DNA from: Selenomonadaceae bacterium
GTDB taxonomy: Bacteria > Bacillota > Negativicutes > Selenomonadales > Selenomonadaceae
Direction of reading: 5' to 3'
Length of the DNA stretch: 64,000 nucleotides
Assembly: GCA_024698045.1 (NCBI GenBank)
Contig: JAILRS010000018.1
Location: forward strand, 1-64,000
This document shows positions 31,829-60,245 of the stretch, piece by piece (positions within the stretch are counted from its first letter, which is position 1; the number at the start of each line of letters is the position of its first letter). Made by a program: the position numbers and the translations under genes. Below the pieces are notes generated by a model that was not told where the DNA came from, searched no databases, and was given only the letters and a program-made list of their open reading frames with translations.

Positions 31829-33496
31829 ATGTTGACTGATGTGGAGATTGCACAGGGGACAAAGATTGAAAAGATAACCGCAGCGGCGTCGAAACTTGGA
31901 TTAACCGAAGATGATTTGGAATTGTACGGGAAATTTAAAGCGAAGATATCGCCCGAAGTGTGGCAACGCGTCAAAGACAATCCCAATGGGAAATTAGTCC
32001 TGGTCACCGCGATAACACCAACTCCGGCCGGCGAAGGTAAGACGACTACTTCAATCGGTTTGGCGGACGCGTTCGGGCAAATGGGTAGGAAAATATGTGT
32101 GGCATTGCGTGAGCCAAGCTTAGGACCTTGTTTCGGAATCAAGGGCGGTGCGGCAGGTGGCGGCTATTCGCAAGTCGTTCCTATGGAAGATATCAACTTG
32201 CATTTCACGGGCGATTTCCACGCCCTGACTACTGCCCATAATCTTTTGGCGGCAATGTTGGATAACCATATACAACAGGGTAATGAATTGGGAATAGATG
32301 TTCGGCGCGTCGTTTGGAAAAGAGTACTCGATTTGAATGACAGAGCATTGCGGCAAGTAGTTATAGGTCTGGGCGGCAAGTCTAACGGAGTACCGCGCGA
32401 ATCCGGTTTCGATATAACTGTCGCCTCCGAAATGATGGCTATACTTTGTTTGGCTAATGACTTCGCCGATTTGAAAAATCGTTTGGGCAAAATAATTGTC
32501 GCCTATACTTATGACGGTAAGGCAGTCACGGCAAACGATTTGAAAGTCACAGGCTCACTTGCGTTGCTACTTAAGGACGCGATTAAACCAAATATAGTAC
32601 AGACATTGGAAGGAACACCGGCAATAATTCACGGGGGACCTTTCGCGAATATAGCGCACGGGTGTAACTCGGTCACCGCAACACGCTACGCACTGAAGTT
32701 GGCTGATGTCGTAGTAACCGAGGCAGGATTCGGCGCGGATTTAGGTGCTGAAAAATTTCTCGATATCAAATGCCGCATGAGTGGTTTGCGTCCCGATTCG
32801 GTTGTCATCGTCGCTACCGTTCGAGCCTTGAAAATGCACGGCGGAGTCGATAAGAAAAATTTAAATGCGGAAAATGTCGAGGCGGTAAATCGCGGACTGG
32901 ATAATCTCGCCAAACACATAGAAAATATTCAGGGGTTCGGTTTACCCGTAGTTGTCGCGCTCAATGATTTCCCGACCGATACCGCTGAAGAAATTGCGGC
33001 TGTAGAAAATTTGTGCGCTACCAAAAATGTTCGGTTCGCAGTGTCGAAAGTATTCGCCCAAGGCGGTAAGGGCGGAATCGAATTGGCGCAAGCAGTCGAG
33101 GAAAGTTTTAACGACGCCAAAGATTTTAAGTTCACATACGAAGACGAAATGACGATAGAGGAAAAAATAACCGCAGTCGCTACGAAGATATACGGGGCTG
33201 ACGGTGTCGAATTCACTGCCGCGGCAAAAAAACACCTTGCCGATATAAATCGTCAAGGCTTCTCGAATATGCCAATTTGTATCGCCAAAACACAGTATTC
33301 GTTATCCGATGACGCGACTAAATTAGGTCGCCCGAAAAACTTCAAGGTTACGGTACGCGAATTGAAAATTTCAGCCGGCGCAGGTTTTATAGTGGTATTG
33401 TTGGGTAGTATCTTGACAATGCCCGGTTTGCCTAAACATCCCGCCGCAGAAAATATTGATATCACTGCCGACGGAATTATCACCGGTTTATTCTGA
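31829..33496 (+). CDS. fhs: Formate-tetrahydrofolate ligase
   Basis: A 555-residue enzyme that makes 10-formyl-tetrahydrofolate from formate, ATP and THF. The nucleotide loop [18 protein letters not shown] (64-81) and [22 protein letters not shown] (95-116) are diagnostic. It feeds purine synthesis (PurN is at the window end) and one-carbon metabolism; a Wood-Ljungdahl role would need further genes not seen here. AGGAGGAG precedes the ATG. Its stop overlaps the stop of the convergent binding-protein gene by 9 nt. Confidence 0.96.
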
Positions 33497-34579
33497 TAAT
33501 CCTACTTCCTCGGGTGCGTAATAACCCGTATCCAATAAATGCTCCTTGATATTGTCCTTCGTTATCAAAATAGGTTCGCAAAGATACGAAGGCACTATCA
33601 TTTCGCCGTTGTTGTAAGTCATATTGTCGGTGACTTCGGGTAAAGTACCGTTAAAAATCGATTCGACGACATGAGCACATTTATCCGCAAGTAGACGACT
33701 GTCTTTGAAAACCGTCATTGCTTGTTTACCTGCAACTATGTACTGAATCGAATACAAATCGCCATCCTGTCCCGTAATGATGGGGCGCAGAGATGAATTG
33801 TTCAATACATTGACAATACCGTTGGCGATGACGTCGGATGAACAGATAACCGCATCGAGTCTCGTCCCGTTACCGTAAACGCTGTTCAAAAGATTGGTCA
33901 TACGTTTCTGCGCCTCTTCTTTACGCCAAAGATAAGTCGCTGTTTCTTCAAAGGCTATTTGTCCCGACGGTATTCTAATTTGTCCGTTATCGATATACGG
34001 TTGCAATACCTCAAGTAGTCCTTCATATATTACTTCTGCGTTACTGTCACTGGCAGAACCCGAAAAGATTTCGGCATTGCAAAATCCTGCGCCGGAGTTG
34101 AGCGCAAAAGTATTTTCGATATATTCGCCGAACAATCTGCCTACTGCCTTATTGTCAAAGGAAACGTAGAAAGAAACCGCATCGCTATTCATTACCAATC
34201 TGTCGTAGGCTATAACCGGTATATTCTTTTCTTTTGCACCGACAAGTACATCGGAAAGGGCGCCCGAATCAATCGGAGTAATTATTATGGCATCCGCTCC
34301 GTTATCAATCATGTACTTTAATTGCGAGCGTTGACGCTCAACATCATTATCCGAACTTTGCAAGTCGACTTTGTAGCCGCGTTTTTCAAATTCGTAGCGC
34401 AGATTGTTACCGTCTTTTATCCACCGCGGCGATTCTCTGTGCGGCATCAGTACTCCGACTATTTTCTGATCGCGTTTCACGGGGTTAACTGTCTTTTTGG
34501 TATCGGTTTTTGTTTGACCGCACCCCACAGCCGTTATCAACATCATCACACTAACGATGATTAGAAGAAACTTTTTCAT
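33488..34579 (-). CDS. Sugar-binding lipoprotein, xylose/ribose ABC type (paralogue 1)
   Basis: A 363-residue periplasmic binding protein of the CUT2 (XylF/ChvE-like) family. It has a lipoprotein signal with a lipobox-like AVGC (Cys20) and the two-lobed sugar-binding fold with [26 protein letters not shown] and [11 protein letters not shown]. Last of five paralogues on the minus strand. No permease or ATPase gene adjoins it. It may supply a distant transporter or act as a sensor ligand-binder. Its start has the hairpin leader described at 34580-34622. Confidence 0.9.
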
Positions 34580-34622
34580 ATAAATGACGCAATACTAACT
34601 ATAGTGTGCGTCGCTCACATCC
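34580..34622 (-). promoter_or_regulatory. Hairpin between SD and start codon, sugar-binding paralogue 1
   Basis: On the minus strand: GGA (34622-34620) of AAGGATGTGA, 7 nt, a 27-nt hairpin with stem GACGCA/TGCGTC (34612-34586), 6 nt, then the ATG. No closer ribosome site exists. Confidence 0.65.
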
Positions 34623-34639
34623 TTTCCTTCTTTTGTCGA

Positions 34640-35716
34640 TTATATTCCCAATTCTTCAGCCGTGTAATAACCGCTGTTCACAAGTACTTCTTTGATATTA
34701 TCCTTAGTTACCAAAATCGGTTGACAAAGGTATGTAGGGACGACGACGATATTATTGTTATACGTGGATGTGTCGTTGACCTCGATTGTATCGCCGTTAA
34801 AAATTGCCTCAACGGTTCGAGCACATTGGTTGGCAAGCAGGCGCGTATCTTTGAAGAGTGTCATTGATTGTTTACCTTCGAGTATGTATTTGACCGCAGC
34901 TATATCGCCATCCTGTCCGGTAATGATGGGTTGACTGTCTACATGGTGAGAATCCAGGGCGCGGATAACTCCGTTGGCAATCCCGTCGGAAGCACAGATA
35001 ACCGCATCAAGTTTCGTTCCGTCATTGTAAACGTTATGCAACAGATAATTCATACGGTTTTGCGCTTCCTCTTTACGCCAGCGATGTGTTGTTGTATCGC
35101 CGAACTCGATTTTTCCCGAAGGTACTTTCAATTGTCCGTTGTCGATATACGGCTGCAATACTCCCATAAGTCCCTCACTTATTACTCGCGCATTGTTATC
35201 GTCGGCGGAACCGGAGAATATTTCGATATTGAATGTATTTGCGCTATCGTTCAATCCCAAACTTTTTTCAACGAATCTCCCGTAACTCTCACCTATACCC
35301 CTATTGTCGAATGTTATGTAGTAGGTTACTGCCGTACTGTTCATTATCAATCTGTCGTAGGCTATAACCGGTATATTTTTCTCCTTGACTTCAATCAAGA
35401 TATCCGACAGCGAGGTCGAATCGACGGCGGCAATGATGAAAATATCCGTGCCCGTCGCTAACATCTCTTGCAATTGAGCACGTTGAGTATCGGCATCGTT
35501 ATCGGCATTCCTCAAGTCGACTTTGTACCCTCTCTTTTCCAATTCCGTTTTGAGGTTGTTGCCGTCCTTTATCCACCGCGGCGATTCTTTTTTTGGCATC
35601 AATATTCCTACTCTTTTGACGCTTTCTTCGCTCGTAGTTGCTTGCTTATCTTTGCCGCAACCTGCTACCGTAATCATCATCATTACGCTTAATATGACGA
35701 TTAATATCTTCTTCAT
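34640..35716 (-). CDS. Sugar-binding lipoprotein, xylose/ribose ABC type (paralogue 2)
   Basis: A 358-residue CUT2-type binding protein. The signal peptide has a lipobox-like VAGC (Cys20), and the family blocks [26 protein letters not shown] and ITGQDGDIAAVKYIL are present. It is clearly related to its four neighbours over the whole length. Start ATG 35716. The upstream leader differs from the others: AAGGAG lies about 29 nt from the ATG, with only a weak 4-bp hairpin AACG/CGTT between, again ending 6 nt before the ATG. Confidence 0.9.
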   Translation of the reverse strand: MKKILIVILSVMMMITVAGCGKDKQATTSEESVKRVGILMPKKESPRWIKDGNNLKTELEKRGYKVDLRNADNDADTQRAQLQEMLATGTDIFIIAAVDSTSLSDILIEVKEKNIPVIAYDRLIMNSTAVTYYITFDNRGIGESYGRFVEKSLGLNDSANTFNIEIFSGSADDNNARVISEGLMGVLQPYIDNGQLKVPSGKIEFGDTTTHRWRKEEAQNRMNYLLHNVYNDGTKLDAVICASDGIANGVIRALDSHHVDSQPIITGQDGDIAAVKYILEGKQSMTLFKDTRLLANQCARTVEAIFNGDTIEVNDTSTYNNNIVVVPTYLCQPILVTKDNIKEVLVNSGYYTAEELGI

Positions 35717-35742
35717 GGAGTTAACGCCACCGTTCGCTCACT

Positions 35743-36816
35743 TTACTCCTTGTCCCCTACTTGCTCGGCAGTATAGAATCCCGAATCCAAAAGTACTTCT
35801 TTGACATTGTCTTTGGTAATGACAACCGGCGTGTAAAGATATGACGGCACGTCAACATTACCGTTATTGTAAATTGTTGCGTCTTTCGTATCGGGAGTTT
35901 TACCTTGCATCAACGCATCTACTATCTCTATACATTTGGGCGCCAAAAGATGTGTATCCTTTAACATCGTCAAGGCTTGTTTATCTGCCATGATGTATTT
36001 GTACGCCGAGATATTGGCGTCTTGTCCCGTGATTACAGGCCAGCTTTCTCCGTTACCATAATTTTTGGCAATCAACGAAGAGATAACGCCGTCGGCAACG
36101 CAATCGGAGGCGCAGATAACCGCGTCGAGTTCGGTACCGTCGTTGTAAATATTCGTCATAAATTCATTCATACGTCTGTACGATTCTTGTTTAAGCCATC
36201 TATATGTATCAGTGTTGTTGAATTTGGTTTGTCCCGAGGGCACTTTCAATTGTTCGTTATCGATATACGGCTGCAACACTTTGAGTAATGACTCGTGAAT
36301 TAATTTGGCGTTGCTGTCGTCGATTGAGCCGGCGAAAAACTCCACATTGTAGCCGCCTTTACCATCTTTGAGCCCAAACTCTTTTTCGATATATTCGCCG
36401 TAGGTTCTGCCGACAAATTCGCTGTCGAAGGCGACGAAATAAGAAATCGCGTTGCTGTTCATAATCAGCTTGTCGAAAGAAATGACAGGTATCTTTTTCT
36501 CTTCGGCTCCGATTAAAACATCCTCAAGAGCAAGAGTATCGACCGCTCCGATTATCATTACGTCGACATCTTTGGATATCATTTCCTTTATCTGTTCTAT
36601 CTGCGTTTCTACGTCGTCTTGAGCATTGAGCACTTCGACTTCGTAGCCGCGTTTTTCAAATTCCTCCTTGAATGTTTCGCCGTCTCTTATCCATCTGTCG
36701 GAATTTGTTTTCGGTATCAACACGCCTATTTTCTTGGTTCCGGTATCATTTGTGCCGCCGCAGCCCGTCATTGTCAACATCATTACTGCAAGTATAATCC
36801 CAAGTATTTTTTTCAT
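35743..36816 (-). CDS. Sugar-binding lipoprotein, xylose/ribose ABC type (paralogue 3)
   Basis: A 357-residue paralogue and the most divergent of the five. Lipobox-like MTGC (Cys19), then IGVLIPKTNSDRWIRDGETF, VISFDKLIMNSNAISYFVAFD and ITGQDANISAYKYIM. It lies 38 nt downstream of mnmE, and 26 nt separate it from paralogue 2, so all are probably in one transcript. It has the hairpin leader at 36817-36849. Confidence 0.9.
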   Translation of the reverse strand: MKKILGIILAVMMLTMTGCGGTNDTGTKKIGVLIPKTNSDRWIRDGETFKEEFEKRGYEVEVLNAQDDVETQIEQIKEMISKDVDVMIIGAVDTLALEDVLIGAEEKKIPVISFDKLIMNSNAISYFVAFDSEFVGRTYGEYIEKEFGLKDGKGGYNVEFFAGSIDDSNAKLIHESLLKVLQPYIDNEQLKVPSGQTKFNNTDTYRWLKQESYRRMNEFMTNIYNDGTELDAVICASDCVADGVISSLIAKNYGNGESWPVITGQDANISAYKYIMADKQALTMLKDTHLLAPKCIEIVDALMQGKTPDTKDATIYNNGNVDVPSYLYTPVVITKDNVKEVLLDSGFYTAEQVGDKE

Positions 36817-36849
36817 CTTTCTGACGCTTTATTTGCGTCCTTCACTTCC
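36817..36849 (-). promoter_or_regulatory. Hairpin between SD and start codon, sugar-binding paralogue 3
   Basis: On the minus strand: GGA (36849-36847) of AAGGAAGTGA, 7 nt, a 17-nt hairpin with stem GACGC/GCGTC and loop AAATAAA (36839-36823), 6 nt, then the ATG. Confidence 0.65.
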
Positions 36850-36854
36850 TTTCC

Positions 36855-38213
36855 TCATTTGCCTATACAGAACTTTGAAAATATTTCGTTGAGGATATCT
36901 TCGCTAACCGATTCGCCCGTCAATTCGCTGAGGCAATCAAGGGCGGCATGCAAATCAATTGAAACGAAATCAATGGCGAAATTATTTTTGATGGTAAGTT
37001 GAGCGTCGCGCAAATGTTTAACGATGCGCCGAAGTAAATCGGCCTCACGTTCGTCGCGTACGAAACTCATTTCAAAGTCTATATTTCCTACTTTATTCTC
37101 GATTGCCTTCAAAAGTTTATCGGTGCCCGTACCTTTCTTCAGTGACACTTCGATTATCTGCGCAGCGGGAAATTTTTTCTTAAGCCGGTTGACTGTCGTA
37201 ACTTTGTTCAAATCGATTTTCGTCAGCAGAATTAAAACATTTCGGTTAGTCAGCAGTTTAAAAATTTCTTCGTCTTCGTCGTCCAATTCTCTGGAGCCGT
37301 CAAACAAGGCAAGTATCAATTCGGCGCGTGCGGCATAATCTTTGGCGCGTTCGATTCCTATTTGCTCTACGGTATTAACAGAATTTCTGATACCCGCAGT
37401 ATCGATTATTTTCAAGGGAATTCCGCCAACGTTGACATATTCTTCAATGCTGTCGCGCGTTGTGCCGGGGATATCGGTTACTATTGCCCGTTCGGTTTTG
37501 GCGAAAAAATTCAGCAGACTTGATTTACCTACATTAGGCTTTCCGATTATCGCCGTCTCCAAACCTTCGCGCAATATTTTCCCCTTTGCTTGATTCGTCA
37601 TCAATTCTTCCAGTTTTGCGATTTGACTTGAAATATTTTGGTTGACTTCGCCGATAACTACATCATCCAAATCGTCCTCGGGGAAATCAATTGTTGCTTC
37701 GATATGTGCCGCCGAATTTATTATCGCCCGACGAATTTCCTTTATCGTCCGTGAAGTTGTGCCGGCTAATTGATTTTGCGAAACGGTCAACGCCGCGGAA
37801 GTTTTGGCTTGAATGACATCTAATACCGCCTGAGCTTGAGTCAAATCTATTCGTCCGTTTAAAAATGCACGCTTTGTAAATTCGCCTCGTTCGGCAGGAC
37901 GCGCCCCCGCCATATACGTCAACTTCAAAACTTCACGCAGAACGACACTACCGCCGTGACATTGCAACTCAACTACGTTTTCCCTTGTGTAGGATTTGGG
38001 CGCGCGCATCACCAACGCTATTACTTCGTCGATTATATTTCCCTCGGCATTTTTGATATGACCGTAGACTAGTGCCTTATCGCCCACTTCGGTTAATGAT
38101 TTGCCGCTGAAAATTTTATTGGCAATCTCAATTGAATCTTTACCGCTCAATCTGATTATGCCTACGCCTGCCGCGCCCGGTGCGGTTGCTATTGCACTGA
38201 TTGTTTCATCCAA
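36855..38213 (-). CDS. mnmE: tRNA modification GTPase MnmE
   Basis: A 452-residue enzyme that with MnmG modifies uridine 34 of some tRNAs. N-terminal folate-binding domain, G domain with GKPNVGKSSLLNFF (G1), DIPGTTRD (G2), DTAGI (G3) and LTKID (G4), and the C-terminal catalytic CIGK (Cys449). The start is TTG 38213, eight nt after GGAGG. MnmG is not nearby. The gene sits among the sugar-binding paralogues rather than after jag, its usual place. Confidence 0.96.
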   Translation of the reverse strand: MDETISAIATAPGAAGVGIIRLSGKDSIEIANKIFSGKSLTEVGDKALVYGHIKNAEGNIIDEVIALVMRAPKSYTRENVVELQCHGGSVVLREVLKLTYMAGARPAERGEFTKRAFLNGRIDLTQAQAVLDVIQAKTSAALTVSQNQLAGTTSRTIKEIRRAIINSAAHIEATIDFPEDDLDDVVIGEVNQNISSQIAKLEELMTNQAKGKILREGLETAIIGKPNVGKSSLLNFFAKTERAIVTDIPGTTRDSIEEYVNVGGIPLKIIDTAGIRNSVNTVEQIGIERAKDYAARAELILALFDGSRELDDEDEEIFKLLTNRNVLILLTKIDLNKVTTVNRLKKKFPAAQIIEVSLKKGTGTDKLLKAIENKVGNIDFEMSFVRDEREADLLRRIVKHLRDAQLTIKNNFAIDFVSIDLHAALDCLSELTGESVSEDILNEIFSKFCIGK

Positions 38214-38227
38214 ATTATTTACCTCCG

Positions 38228-39328
38228 TTAAAGTCCGACATCTTCCGCCGCGTAATAACCGGTATCCAACAATACTTCTTTGAAATTCTCTTTGGTGACC
38301 AAGACAGGCTGACAGAGATAGCTCGGGACGATAATACTACCGTTATCGTAAGTCATATTGTCGTTGATATCGGGTAATTTGCCCTCCATTATATCAATAA
38401 CCATTTCGGCACATTTGGCGGAAAGAACGCGCGTATCTTTGAAGAGTGTCATTGACTGTTTGCCGGCAATAATATTTTTAATTGCGCTGATATCGGCGTC
38501 TTGACCCGTGATAATAGGCCAGTTGACGCCCACTGTGTAACCTTGTTCATCGAGAGCCTTGACGGCACCTTCGGCAAGCCCGTCGGAGGAGCAAATAATA
38601 GCATCGGGTTTTATACCGTTGTAGGTGTTTATCAAAAGTTTGGTGACACGTGTGTAAGCTTCTTCACTAAACCAGCGATAAGTATTTGTCTCACTCAAAG
38701 AGATTTGTCCCGAAGGTACTTTTATTTGTCCGTTTTCGATATAGGGATAAAGCACCTCGAAAATGCCGCTGTTAACGATAATGGCATTATTGTCGTCAAG
38801 CGAACCCCCAACAAATTCCACATTGAAAGAGCCTCGACCGTCTTTTAGTCCTAAGGTATCTTCAACAAATTCGCCGAAAAACATGCCGATAGCTTTGTTA
38901 TCGAAAGTGACGTAAAAAGAAACGGCGTCGCTGTTCATAATCAATCTGTCGTAGGCAATGACGGGTATTAGTTTTTCTTTGGCAGCAACCAAAATATCGG
39001 CAAGAGCCCCCGAATCAACCGCCGCCACGATGATAATATCGGCTCCGTTATCAATCATGTACTTTAATTGCGAGCGTTGTTTTTCAACGTTGTTATCGGA
39101 ATTTTGCATATCGACTTTGTAGCCGCGTTTTTCAAATTCATACTTAAGATTATTGCCGTCTTTCGTCCAGCGTGGCGAATCCTTTTGAGGCATCAATATT
39201 CCGATAATTTTTTGTTTGGGCTTGACTTCATTGTGATTGTTACTTTGATTGACAGGTTCCGCCTTCTGACAACCTGCCATCAAGACCAACATCATGACAC
39301 TCAAGGCAATAAGGAGAAATTTTTTCAT
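38228..39328 (-). CDS. Sugar-binding lipoprotein, xylose/ribose ABC type (paralogue 4)
   Basis: A 366-residue CUT2-type binding protein with lipobox-like MAGC and [41 protein letters not shown] and ITGQDADISAIKNII. I start at ATG 39328. A GTG four codons upstream lies too close to the ribosome site. GGA of AAGGATGTGA is 13 nt before the ATG with no hairpin, which gives the natural comparison for the hairpin leaders of paralogues 1, 3 and 5. mnmE starts 14 nt after its stop. Confidence 0.9.
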   Translation of the reverse strand: MKKFLLIALSVMMLVLMAGCQKAEPVNQSNNHNEVKPKQKIIGILMPQKDSPRWTKDGNNLKYEFEKRGYKVDMQNSDNNVEKQRSQLKYMIDNGADIIIVAAVDSGALADILVAAKEKLIPVIAYDRLIMNSDAVSFYVTFDNKAIGMFFGEFVEDTLGLKDGRGSFNVEFVGGSLDDNNAIIVNSGIFEVLYPYIENGQIKVPSGQISLSETNTYRWFSEEAYTRVTKLLINTYNGIKPDAIICSSDGLAEGAVKALDEQGYTVGVNWPIITGQDADISAIKNIIAGKQSMTLFKDTRVLSAKCAEMVIDIMEGKLPDINDNMTYDNGSIIVPSYLCQPVLVTKENFKEVLLDTGYYAAEDVGL

Positions 39329-39384
39329 GAAGTCGTTCACATCCTTTCCGCTTGGTTAATGGTTAAAATTATTCACCTCCCAAA

Positions 39385-40488
39385 TCAAAGCCCGACATCT
39401 TCGGGCGCGTAATAACCGGTATCCAAGAAAACTTCTTTGAAATTATCTTTGGTGACTACAACAGGTTGACAAAGGTAGCTCGGGACAATAATTTCGCCGT
39501 TATCATAAGTCATATTGTCATTGATATCGGGAATATTACCGTTAAATAAGTCGTCGACCATTTCGGCACATTTGGCAGAAAGAACGCGTGTATCCTTGAA
39601 GATAGTCATCGATTGCTTGCCGGTAATGATATTTCTTGCGGCAACGACATCGCCATCTTGCCCTGTGACGATAGGCCAATAGTCAGGGGCGCGAAAACCA
39701 TAGGCCTCAAGAGCGGAGATAACGCCGGAAGAAATACTGTCGGAAGCGCAAATAACGGCATCGGGTGGGGTTTGACCGCCGTAAACATTTTCCAAAATAT
39801 TGCCCATACGTTTGTTAGATTCTTCGTTGCGCCAACGATAAATAGTGGTCTGGTCGAAATCGATTTGTCCCGAAGGTATATTAAGTTGCCCGTTATCGAT
39901 ATATGGCTGCAGGACTTCTAACAAAGAATCGTTAACGATGCGAGCGTTGTTGTCGTCGACGGAACCGGCAAAAAATTCTACGTTGAAGTTGCCTGCGCCA
40001 TTATTAAGCCCAAAAGTATTTTCGATATATTCGCCCAACAATCTGCCCACAGCTTTATTATCAAAAGAAACGTAGTAAGAGACGGCATCAGTGTTCATGA
40101 TTAATCTGTCGTAAGCAATAACGGGAATATTTTTGGTTTTGGCTTCGGCGAGCACCTCGGCAAGAGCCTCCGAATCAACCGCCGCCACGATGATAATATC
40201 GGCTCCGTTCTCAATCATGTATTTCAACTGGTCTTGTTGACGTTGTGTATCGTTCTCGGAATTTTGCATATCGACTTTGTAACCGCGTTTTTCAAATTCG
40301 TAACGCAAATTATCGCCATCTTTAGTCCAGCGCAATGAATCACGTTTCGGCATTAAAATTCCGATAATTCTCTGTTTAGTTTTTTCCCGAACATCATTGG
40401 CATTATGATTCACCTCCTCGTAAACGCCGCAACCTGTAAGAGCGAGGAAGATAAATGAACTCAAAATAATCAGAAAAAACTTTTTCAT
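39385..40488 (-). CDS. Sugar-binding lipoprotein, xylose/ribose ABC type (paralogue 5)
   Basis: A 367-residue CUT2-type binding protein, first in the run, with a lipobox-like LTGC and the same family blocks ([41 protein letters not shown]). ATG 40488 gives a normal lipoprotein signal MKKFFLIILSS. A second in-frame ATG at 40539 has a well-spaced GAAGGGA site and would add 17 residues before the signal, so either could be used. The hairpin leader lies between the two. Confidence 0.88.
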   Translation of the reverse strand: MKKFFLIILSSFIFLALTGCGVYEEVNHNANDVREKTKQRIIGILMPKRDSLRWTKDGDNLRYEFEKRGYKVDMQNSENDTQRQQDQLKYMIENGADIIIVAAVDSEALAEVLAEAKTKNIPVIAYDRLIMNTDAVSYYVSFDNKAVGRLLGEYIENTFGLNNGAGNFNVEFFAGSVDDNNARIVNDSLLEVLQPYIDNGQLNIPSGQIDFDQTTIYRWRNEESNKRMGNILENVYGGQTPPDAVICASDSISSGVISALEAYGFRAPDYWPIVTGQDGDVVAARNIITGKQSMTIFKDTRVLSAKCAEMVDDLFNGNIPDINDNMTYDNGEIIVPSYLCQPVVVTKDNFKEVFLDTGYYAPEDVGL

Positions 40489-40547
40489 GCATACGACGCC
40501 CAAAACCATCACAAATTTTAAATAGACAGCCTGCGTCATTCACATCC
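40489..40547 (-). promoter_or_regulatory. Hairpin between SD and start codon, sugar-binding paralogue 5
   Basis: On the minus strand: GGA (40547-40545) of AAGGGATGTGA, 7 nt, a 43-nt element closed by GACGC/GCGTC (40537-40495), 6 nt, then ATG 40488. The loop is long (33 nt), so this is the weakest of the set. An in-frame ATG at 40539 is a simpler alternative start. Confidence 0.45.
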
Positions 40548-40808
40548 CTTCATATTGATTTTATCGGGTGTAAACGTGTAAAAAACCGCTTTCGTGATAT
40601 GTATTTATTTTACACGACGGCAATCTTTTTGGCAATTTATTTGCACGTGCAGTAAGTATAAAAGTCATGTGAATTTTCACGTACAAACCGCAAAGCAATC
40701 GGTTGGCAAACGGCGATAAAAAATGTCGTGTCAAATAAGGTTGGGCAGGATTTATGAAACCTTTGGCGAAAAATTGTTGCTAGTGTTACACCGGCACTGT
40801 ATGTGTTA
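40548..40808. other. Divergent intergenic region between sugar-binding genes and hydrogenase operon
   Basis: It should hold promoters for both directions. For the plus strand an extended -10 is seen (next entry). For the minus strand I see no convincing hexamer pair. TGTAAACGTGTAAA at about 40569-40582 resembles a catabolite-response element, with two mismatches; weak. No gene is visible. Confidence 0.4.
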
Positions 40809-58890: not shown

Positions 58891-58910
58891 TTCCATAAAA
58901 ATAAGCGAAA

Positions 58911-58952
58911 GGAAGTGAACGGCGCAGTAACATATAACTTGCGCCAATTTTT
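58911..58952 (+). promoter_or_regulatory. Hairpin between SD and start codon, purB
   Basis: GGA (58911-58913) of AAAGGAAGTGA, 7 nt, a 25-nt hairpin with stem GGCGCA/TGCGCC (58921-58945), 7 nt, then ATG 58953. There is no other ribosome site near the ATG. Confidence 0.7.
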
Positions 58953-60245
58953 ATGATTGAAAGGTACACTTTGCCCGAAATGGGTAAACTTTGGTCAATC
59001 GAAAACGAATGGCAGACGATTCTTGATGTGGAGCTTGCTGCCTGCGATGCAATGGCGGAGTTGGGCGAAATTCCTGTCGAAGCTGCGCAGAATATTCGCG
59101 CCAAAGCAAATTTCAATCTCGAACGCATTCACGAAATCGAATCGGTAACACATCATGACATCATTGCGTTCTTGACTTGTGTCGGCGAATACGTCGGCGA
59201 AGACTCCAAATACATCCACAAAGGTTTAACCTCGAGCGACGTGAAAGATACCGCGATTTGTATCATGATGAAACGTTCGGCGGAAATTATCCTTGATGAC
59301 TTGAAAAAATTCCTCGAAGTCCTTCGCCGTCGTGCCGTTGAATTCAAACATACTCCGTGTATCGGCAGAACGCACGGCATACATGCCGAACCAATGACTT
59401 TCGGCTTGAAACTTTTACTGTGGAACGACGAAATTGAACGCGATATAGAACGTGTCGAGCACGCTAAAAAAATCGTGAGCGTCGGGAAATTATCGGGTGC
59501 GGTCGGTACTTACTCCAATATAGATCCGAAGATTGAAGAACTTGTCTGCCAAAAATTGGGCTTAACTCCCGTACGTTTGGCAACTCAAGTCATTCAGCGC
59601 GACAGACATGCCGAATACATGACGACTTTGGCGATAGTAGCGAGTACCTTGGAAAAAATCGCGACGGAAATCCGTAACCTGCAACGCACCGATATCCGCG
59701 AAGCCGAAGAATATTTTTCACCCGGTCAAAAAGGTTCGTCGGCTATGCCGCATAAACGTAACCCGATTAATTGCGAACGCGTTGCCGGTATGGCGCGACT
59801 CGTACGCGGAAATGCAATCGCCGCTATGGAAGATATTACCCTGTGGCACGAACGCGATATCTCACATAGTTCCGTCGAGCGCGTCATTCTCCCCGATTCA
59901 ACCATCAACGTAGATTATTGCACGCGCAAAATTACAAACATTGTCGATAAATTACTTGTTTATCCCGAAGCAATGTTGCATAATATGAATCGCACGGGCG
60001 GATTGATTTACAGTCAACGACTCATGTTGGAAATTGTCGGCAAGGGCGTTTTGCGTGAAGATGCTTACAAATGGGTACAGCGTAACGCAATGAAACGTTG
60101 GCTCGAGGGCGAAGACTTCAAGACGAATGCCGCCAAAGATCCCGATATCACGAAGTATTTGACGCCCGAGGAAGTTGCCGCCTGTTTCGATTTTAAATTC
60201 TTCCTGCGGCATGTCGATATGATTTTCGCGCGTTACGGTCTCTGA
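58953..60245 (+). CDS. purB: Adenylosuccinate lyase
   Basis: A 430-residue fumarase-superfamily enzyme acting twice in purine synthesis (SAICAR to AICAR and adenylosuccinate to AMP). THHDIIAFL, GRTHGIHAEPMTFG and the signature GSSAMPHKRNPINCE are present. It lies 62 nt after the previous gene and has the hairpin leader above. Confidence 0.96.
   Translation: MIERYTLPEMGKLWSIENEWQTILDVELAACDAMAELGEIPVEAAQNIRAKANFNLERIHEIESVTHHDIIAFLTCVGEYVGEDSKYIHKGLTSSDVKDTAICIMMKRSAEIILDDLKKFLEVLRRRAVEFKHTPCIGRTHGIHAEPMTFGLKLLLWNDEIERDIERVEHAKKIVSVGKLSGAVGTYSNIDPKIEELVCQKLGLTPVRLATQVIQRDRHAEYMTTLAIVASTLEKIATEIRNLQRTDIREAEEYFSPGQKGSSAMPHKRNPINCERVAGMARLVRGNAIAAMEDITLWHERDISHSSVERVILPDSTINVDYCTRKITNIVDKLLVYPEAMLHNMNRTGGLIYSQRLMLEIVGKGVLREDAYKWVQRNAMKRWLEGEDFKTNAAKDPDITKYLTPEEVAACFDFKFFLRHVDMIFARYGL

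Follow-up and report, generated by a model that had tools for sequence, protein, structure and literature searches.

How can a ribosome-binding site serve a gene from which a hairpin separates it, and where does such a leader come from? The question is raised by the purB leader (58911-58952), in which an extended Shine–Dalgarno (SD) sequence is followed by a hairpin and then by ATG. The window analysed here is the whole stretch of 64,000 nucleotides (contig JAILRS010000018.1, positions 1 to 64,000), part of a Quinella-like Selenomonadaceae metagenome-assembled genome (MAG) of 2.08 Mb; its near relatives are Quinella sp. 1Q7 and other rumen Selenomonadaceae. The purB leader is one of many copies in this genome, and the window holds the following features of it and of a group of sugar-binding paralogues.

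58907..58918, plus strand: purB SD, extended but imperfect, GAAAGGAAGTGA (covariance model 51.1 bits, E 2e-11)
58921..58945, plus strand: purB hairpin between SD and start, stem GGCGCA/TGCGCC, 13-nt loop (sequence and fold)
58953..58956, plus strand: purB start, ATG followed by A, the reverse complement of the transposon target TCAT (start conserved in relatives)
34615..34626, minus strand: SD of sugar-binding paralogue 1, GAAAGGATGTGA (motif and covariance model)
34586..34612, minus strand: paralogue 1 hairpin, stem GACGCA/TGCGTC, then 6 nt and ATGA at 34579-34576 (sequence and fold)
36842..36853, minus strand: paralogue 3 SD, GAAAGGAAGTGA (motif and covariance model)
36823..36839, minus strand: paralogue 3 hairpin, stem GACGC/GCGTC, then 6 nt and ATGA at 36816-36813 (sequence and fold)
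40540..40551, minus strand: paralogue 5 SD-like sequence, GAAGGGATGTGA (motif)
40495..40537, minus strand: paralogue 5 hairpin, stem GACGC/GCGTC, then 6 nt and ATGA at 40488-40485 (weak covariance score, 9.9 bits)
39325..39348, minus strand: paralogue 4, GAAAGGATGTGA (39348-39337), 8 nt and ATGA, without hairpin (covariance model 25.5 bits)
35714..35752, minus strand: paralogue 2, decayed copy with AAGGAGTAAAGTGA, 4-bp stem AACG/CGTT, 6 nt and ATGA (sequence)

The SD-hairpin leader and its copies in the genome

The original prediction named purB and paralogues 1, 3 and 5 as four loci with the order SD, hairpin, ATG, and the coordinates of all four were confirmed; paralogue 4, said to lack the hairpin, and paralogue 2, said to carry a degenerate version with a 4-bp stem, were likewise found as described. 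The five paralogues are neighbouring genes for periplasmic sugar-binding lipoproteins (PF13407; window 33488-40539, minus strand) with leaders at different stages: the hairpin is present in 1, 3 and 5, decayed in 2 and lost in 4. The leader was probably duplicated along with the gene. We read the paralogue 4 leader as a copy after hairpin loss, and purE in the same genome looks like a hairpin-less derivative of this kind. For paralogue 5, a start at ATG 40539 had been considered, but ATG 40488 is most likely the start, because the lipoprotein signal MKKFF... lies there, as in the other paralogues.

The element is not restricted to purB and the sugar-binding genes; it is genome-wide, with ~38 copies in the ~60% of the genome (1.24 Mb) that was read as stretches; the remaining ~40% was seen through pattern searches only. 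All 19 exact matches to GGANGTGANNGRCGC in the 2.08-Mb genome consist of an extended SD, 2-3 nt, a hairpin, 5-8 nt and ATG. Pattern searches of the window's genome gave 17 matches to AGGANGTGANNGRCGC versus 0 for the reversed pattern, and 30 versus 2 for GAAAGGAWGTGA. With the start taken as the first downstream ATG with an open frame, picked blind to structure, a stem score of at least 14 was reached at 30 of 31 far GAAAGGA[A/T]GTGA sites in the stretches read, whereas 200 dinucleotide shuffles averaged 2.6 such sites and never exceeded 8. Applied to 1.24 Mb of this genome, a covariance model found 33 distinct matches at E < 5e-4 (hairpin-less paralogue 4 among them), the model having been trained on many of the very copies that it then matched. 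The SD-hairpin-ATG layout is real and far above chance, and the large excess over shuffled sequence bears out the original expectation.

The SD of the element reads GAAAGG, then AA, AT, AC, TG or CG (21, 9, 1, 4 and 3 copies, respectively), then GTGA. It had been described as the extended SD complementary to the 16S rRNA end; an SD in fixed register to the start is present, but it is nearly always imperfect (GAAAGGAAGTGA, or -AT-, -TG- or -CG- in its place). GAAAGGAGGTGA, which we take to be the perfect complement of the usual 16S tail, was not among the true copies in the window's genome, and the SDs nearly always deviate from that complement at one or other of two middle bases, as though full complementarity over 12 bp were avoided. 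The 16S gene was not found in the window's genome, nor the 16S tail in any of 66 relatives; with the tail unreadable in the assemblies, the anti-SD is assumed from general knowledge. Ordinary genes of the relatives also use GAAAGGAAGTGA, but 4-5 nt from the start and without preference for the base after it.

The stems covary, as had been anticipated. When 30 trimmed copies were placed in one register, which pairs position x counted from GTGA with position x+5 counted back from ATG, 88.8% of pairs were standard, a percentage biased because the register was chosen from the same sequences; double changes are still informative, and six of eight pairs have changed on both sides. Doubly changed cells numbered 27 versus 8.5 in shuffles, the covariation score was 0.358 versus 0.21 (0/500), and these signals collapsed when the register slid by one. 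Analysed separately, the copies in the window's genome show 85-100% standard pairing at each of six stem pairs, with more than two kinds of base pair represented. One arm of many stems carries a bulged base (lepB of G013, G029, G030, G034, G039, G040 and G042; purB), and such bulges resemble the imperfect palindromes bound by Y1 transposases.

In the window's genome, the loops of the copies are unrelated in sequence and 3-65 nt long. The genes downstream (purB, purD, glgA, plsY, kdsB, htpX-like, cysK-like, periplasmic/sugar-binding proteins and others) have no common theme, which makes a regulon, riboswitch or thermometer unlikely. Control by temperature or a protein, as initially suggested, or by a ligand finds no support in these leaders: loops and upstream sequence are unconserved, the genes have no shared function and the frame of the GTG is random. 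It is true that conserved sequence and structure overlap the initiation region and that the SD pairs with the start in some folds; in paralogues 1 and 5, pairing of part of the SD with the start region could, on the predicted folds, lower translation. Nevertheless, a regulatory RNA (thermometer, riboswitch or protein operator) that opens and closes the SD-start link at co-regulated genes seems very improbable to us, given the unrelated loops and the lack of any Rfam match for the leaders (the only match in the window is a tRNA), and since a transposon-end origin and empty sites, described below, account for the distribution. CsrA/RsmA sites were rejected, as the GGA of all copies precedes the hairpin and is never part of a loop, and intron-like excision of the hairpin found no support.

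We give next to no credence to the conserved GTG as the start of a short leader peptide translationally coupled at ATGA: the GTG frame does end at the TGA of ATGA in a few copies (e.g., purB), but the GTG-to-ATG distance modulo 3 is random (23/22/18) and in-frame stops are common (e.g., paralogue 1). A different structure precedes ftsZ (GTG start; L205 minus strand from 2507, G000:C24), where AAGGAGGTGA is followed by a 15-bp inverted repeat with a second SD (GGAG) in its 3' arm just before the start; it looks like SD sequestration unrelated to the element and was excluded from the set.

Transposon units and empty sites in related genomes

A point that the original prediction overlooked is that the SD-hairpin is, with high probability, the left end (LE) of an IS200/IS605-type transposon inserted at TCAT/ATGA. 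In six related genomes (G001, G002, G011, G016, G029 and G050), the SD-hairpin forms one terminus of a longer unit, and a divergent tnpB starts shortly upstream of it in four of them (G001, G016, G029 and G050). The TnpB of the G016 copy has OrfB_IS605 and TNB domains, and close homologues adjoin the same end in other relatives. Nine tnpB-less units of 185-416 bp have the same left end and a constant other end, GTAAAC..CCCCAC..GGGG, while the G001 copy with tnpB sequence measures 1384 bp. All ten units end directly before ATGA (TCAT on the tnpB strand), and the sequence outside GTAAAC varies. IS200/IS605 elements as a rule insert immediately 3' of a fixed tetra- or pentanucleotide, which adjoins their left end, and leave the right flank unconstrained (PMC7290912, PMC8612924); the ends require hairpins for transposition (PMC7290912). 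The hairpin of the element is subterminal at the left end, where a member of IS200/IS605 has to carry it. IS200/IS605 elements can have a right-end RNA whose guide comes from the flank; the right end is conserved among the units, and Rfam gave no match in three transposon loci. Upstream sequence of the L141 type was also tried as the right end next to GAAAGG and rejected, the constant end GTAAAC..CCCCAC being 138-353 nt further out.

Two further observations concern the transposons of the genus. Its more distant TnpB elements (L405, L406, L408 and L409) have another conserved left end, like TTTTAGAGGTCTCGTTCACAACGGCTCGC, without SD-hairpin. In addition, several contigs end within ~200 bases of a GAAAGGAAGTGA site (G026:C55, G026:C57, G029:C4, G029:C5, G047:C2, G002:C61 and G033:C8), as expected if some of these sites are repeated mobile sequence that breaks assemblies.

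The target explains a feature of the leaders themselves. The position after the start codon is A in 30 of 31 copies versus 121 of 287 (42%) ordinary SD-gene starts (p = 1e-9). Insertion 3' of TCAT means, on the opposite strand, landing directly 5' of ATGA, often a start codon (ATG + A), so the A follows from the TCAT/ATGA target; a K-turn or tandem-GA contact between GUGA and AUGA was dropped on this ground. In the transposon-bearing genomes, 13 of 16 exact-motif copies are at ATGA starts, which make up ~24% of non-coding ATGA sites (p = 2e-6), an excess that may reflect insertion preference or survival, indistinguishable from these counts.

When the flanks of the ten units were joined, a good native SD stood 5-10 nt before the ATG at most sites. 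The restored leaders include GGAGG-TAATGTTAAA-ATG, GAGGAG-CGGTCATT-ATG, GAGGAG-AACTGACT-ATG, GAGGAG-AGTTA-ATG, TGGAGG-TACAAGCAGT-ATG, GGAGG-AAGGGTT-ATG and AAAGG-TTGATTTT-ATG, among others. A search of the joined flanks against 17 related genomes recovered uninterrupted empty sites for eight of the ten insertions (L384, L385, L386, L387, L388, L389, L390 and L397); aligned across the junction, the relatives have an SD and an ATG of their own, with small indels in some. The G002 site matches its G050 counterpart base for base across the junction, with no base lost and no target duplication. At two sites in G029 (L387 and L391), the reading frame of the upstream gene continues into the unit, where the TAA of GTAAAC ends it, and the joined flanks give the TGA of ATGA. 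In an overlapping ATGA pair, the upstream gene thus appears to receive a replacement stop from the GTAAAC right end, its position unchanged (NNA TGA to NNG TAA).

These sites also bear on the possibility that the SD-hairpin is an older host feature, upstream of which transposons inserted or which they captured as an end. The window-genome leaders indeed stand without a transposon or sequence like the right end, and some leaders occur in other genera (G088 and G125). At most of the ten insertions, however, a suitably spaced native SD is located outside the entire unit, and taking out the unit together with the SD-hairpin restores the leader seen in relatives; moreover, the A after ATG is a signature of the target, and the G088 loop resembles the transposon LE loop. 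We therefore hold a host origin to be quite unlikely.

Origin of the leaders in the window's genome and proposed mechanism

Taken together, we regard it as highly likely that the leaders are outward-facing left ends of an IS200/IS605-type (TnpB class) transposon and of its short tnpB-less derivatives, the SD of the end working across its own hairpin and replacing the displaced native SD. What ties the window's genome to the transposon is agreement in the SD, in hairpin position and in the core of the stem, together with the A-after-ATG target signature; from this we infer that the copies in this genome descend from such insertions. Neither a close TnpB in the window's genome nor the right end in 1.24 Mb of it was found, and the regions upstream of its copies do not repeat one another, except at the paralogous sugar-binding genes. 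An upstream stop codon precedes several copies by 1-20 nt, which suggests that only the left end is left in this genome. The loops of its copies show little likeness to transposon LE loops; the most similar is that of glgA (GGTTCCTCCCCAAGGAGTATCCGC), with p ~0.003 before correction for 35 tests.

The transposase of the element is presumably a Y1 enzyme. PF01797 (Y1 transposase) was not detected in the window's genome (G000), G001, G011 or G029 and is present in 7 of 66 genomes of the genus, which is not decisive because the MAGs are incomplete and TnpA can act in trans.

In a strict model search, the element was found in 25 of the 66 genomes of the genus, with by far the highest copy number in the window's genome. 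At least two other family members beyond the genus have elements that look real on inspection (G088 and G125), and there is hardly any further out; weak matches outside the genus in G087, G108 and G136 look like chance, and candidate model matches also occur in G193, G322 and G349. Conservation of the leader in homologues, a prediction of the first reading, was borne out at lepB, where orthologues of seven species retain the element with stems changed yet paired. The lepB leader of G033 has AAGGAGTGA, 9 nt and GTG, with the SD kept and no hairpin, and looks like a hairpin-less derivative. In one element of G011 (L144/L272, G011:C63), minisatellite-like repeats (TAGGAGTTAGGAGTTAGG / CTAAATCCTAACTCC) have expanded within the loop, which is 109 nt long, and the stem is intact; these repeats are common between genes of the genus and are also found in the purB leaders L035, L037 and L046.

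We propose the following course of events. The element would insert 3' of TCAT without duplicating its target and shift the native SD away by ~0.2-1.4 kb, while its left end would supply, in this order, GAAAGGAWGUGA (which complements the 16S tail over an extended stretch, though imperfectly), a gap of 2-3 nt, the terminal hairpin and a further 5-8 nt. Folding of the hairpin would leave ~8-11 unpaired nt from SD to AUG, so that the ribosome could use this SD and the gene would stay translated. In the window's genome, only the left end would remain of each insertion, and these ends would serve purB, purD, glgA, plsY, kdsB and the sugar-binding genes; selection for translation would keep SD and stem, while loop and upstream sequence drift. 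That ribosomes bridge the hairpin we infer from the arrangement of the sequences. The purB start is conserved in relatives, none of whose 80 purB leaders has the hairpin, and a nearer SD would not fit into the 7 nt that separate the hairpin from the ATG, which makes a mechanism like that of T4 genes 25 and 38 likely.

Alternatively, the hairpin could be kept only for DNA recognition by the transposase, with the genes initiating without an SD. The hairpin requirement of IS200/IS605 ends (PMC7290912) speaks for this, as do several stems that are bulged, imperfect palindromes. We consider it unlikely, since no transposase was detected in the window's genome, yet SD and stem are conserved there while loops and upstream sequence have fully diverged; lepB, too, keeps SD and stem across the seven species, and its hairpin-less G033 version keeps the SD. 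Returning to transposon ends used in translation, we think it somewhat more probable than its opposite that this TnpB-class family lives by start codons with ends built for translation: its TCAT target leads to ATGA, its left end carries an SD over a hairpin, its GTAAAC end can supply an upstream stop, and its ends have become fixed as start regions of dozens of housekeeping genes, a state that in one lineage or more has outlasted the transposon.

Comparison with known systems

In the open-access literature, to which our search was confined, we found no report of an insertion sequence that provides a gene with an SD acting over the element's own hairpin. That transposons can bring promoters is known, and insertion sequences can carry outward-facing ones. 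Such insertion sequences and the present element both give a neighbouring gene expression signals, but where the former supply a promoter, the end of this TnpB-class transposon appears to supply a ribosome-binding site, linked to the start codon by a hairpin. A gene cut off from its SD by such an insertion would then not have to fall silent. REP/RAYT palindromes are short palindromes by a conserved tetranucleotide, related to Y1 transposases and dispersed in many copies. The element resembles them in its short palindrome beside a conserved tetranucleotide, its relation to Y1 and its many scattered copies, but differs in that its copies stand at start codons with a conserved SD and in that a Y1 transposase was not found in the window's genome.

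With IS200/IS605 and PATEs, the element shares an OrfB_IS605 TnpB, the left-end hairpin, a fixed target, the lack of target duplication and short derivatives that consist of the ends only (PMC7290912, PMC8612924); its tnpB-less short units resemble PATEs (PMC7290912). Unlike IS200/IS605, its target TCAT puts many insertions at ATGA starts, and its left end carries an outward SD that the host gene can use. This would be a case of transposon ends recruited for translation, which bears on why such elements sit at start codons.

The nearest mechanistic precedent is phage T4 (PMC3014915). In its genes 25 and 38, a hairpin brings a distant SD to the AUG, and mutations that break the stem lower translation (Nivinskas et al. 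1999; Malys & Nivinskas 2009; reviewed in PMC3014915). In both systems, the SD is too far away and the hairpin shortens the distance, from 22 to 5 nt and from 27 to 11 nt in T4 and, by prediction, from ~25-134 to ~8-11 nt in the element (PMC3014915). The T4 cases are single genes without a transposon origin and were demonstrated experimentally, whereas the element, known from sequence, recurs at dozens of genes in a genome, its SD and register almost constant, and consists of transposon ends. The split SD of two T4 genes would thereby become a natural experiment repeated at dozens of genes in a genome that differ in stem, loop and spacing, in which the limits of SD-start bridging would be directly testable.
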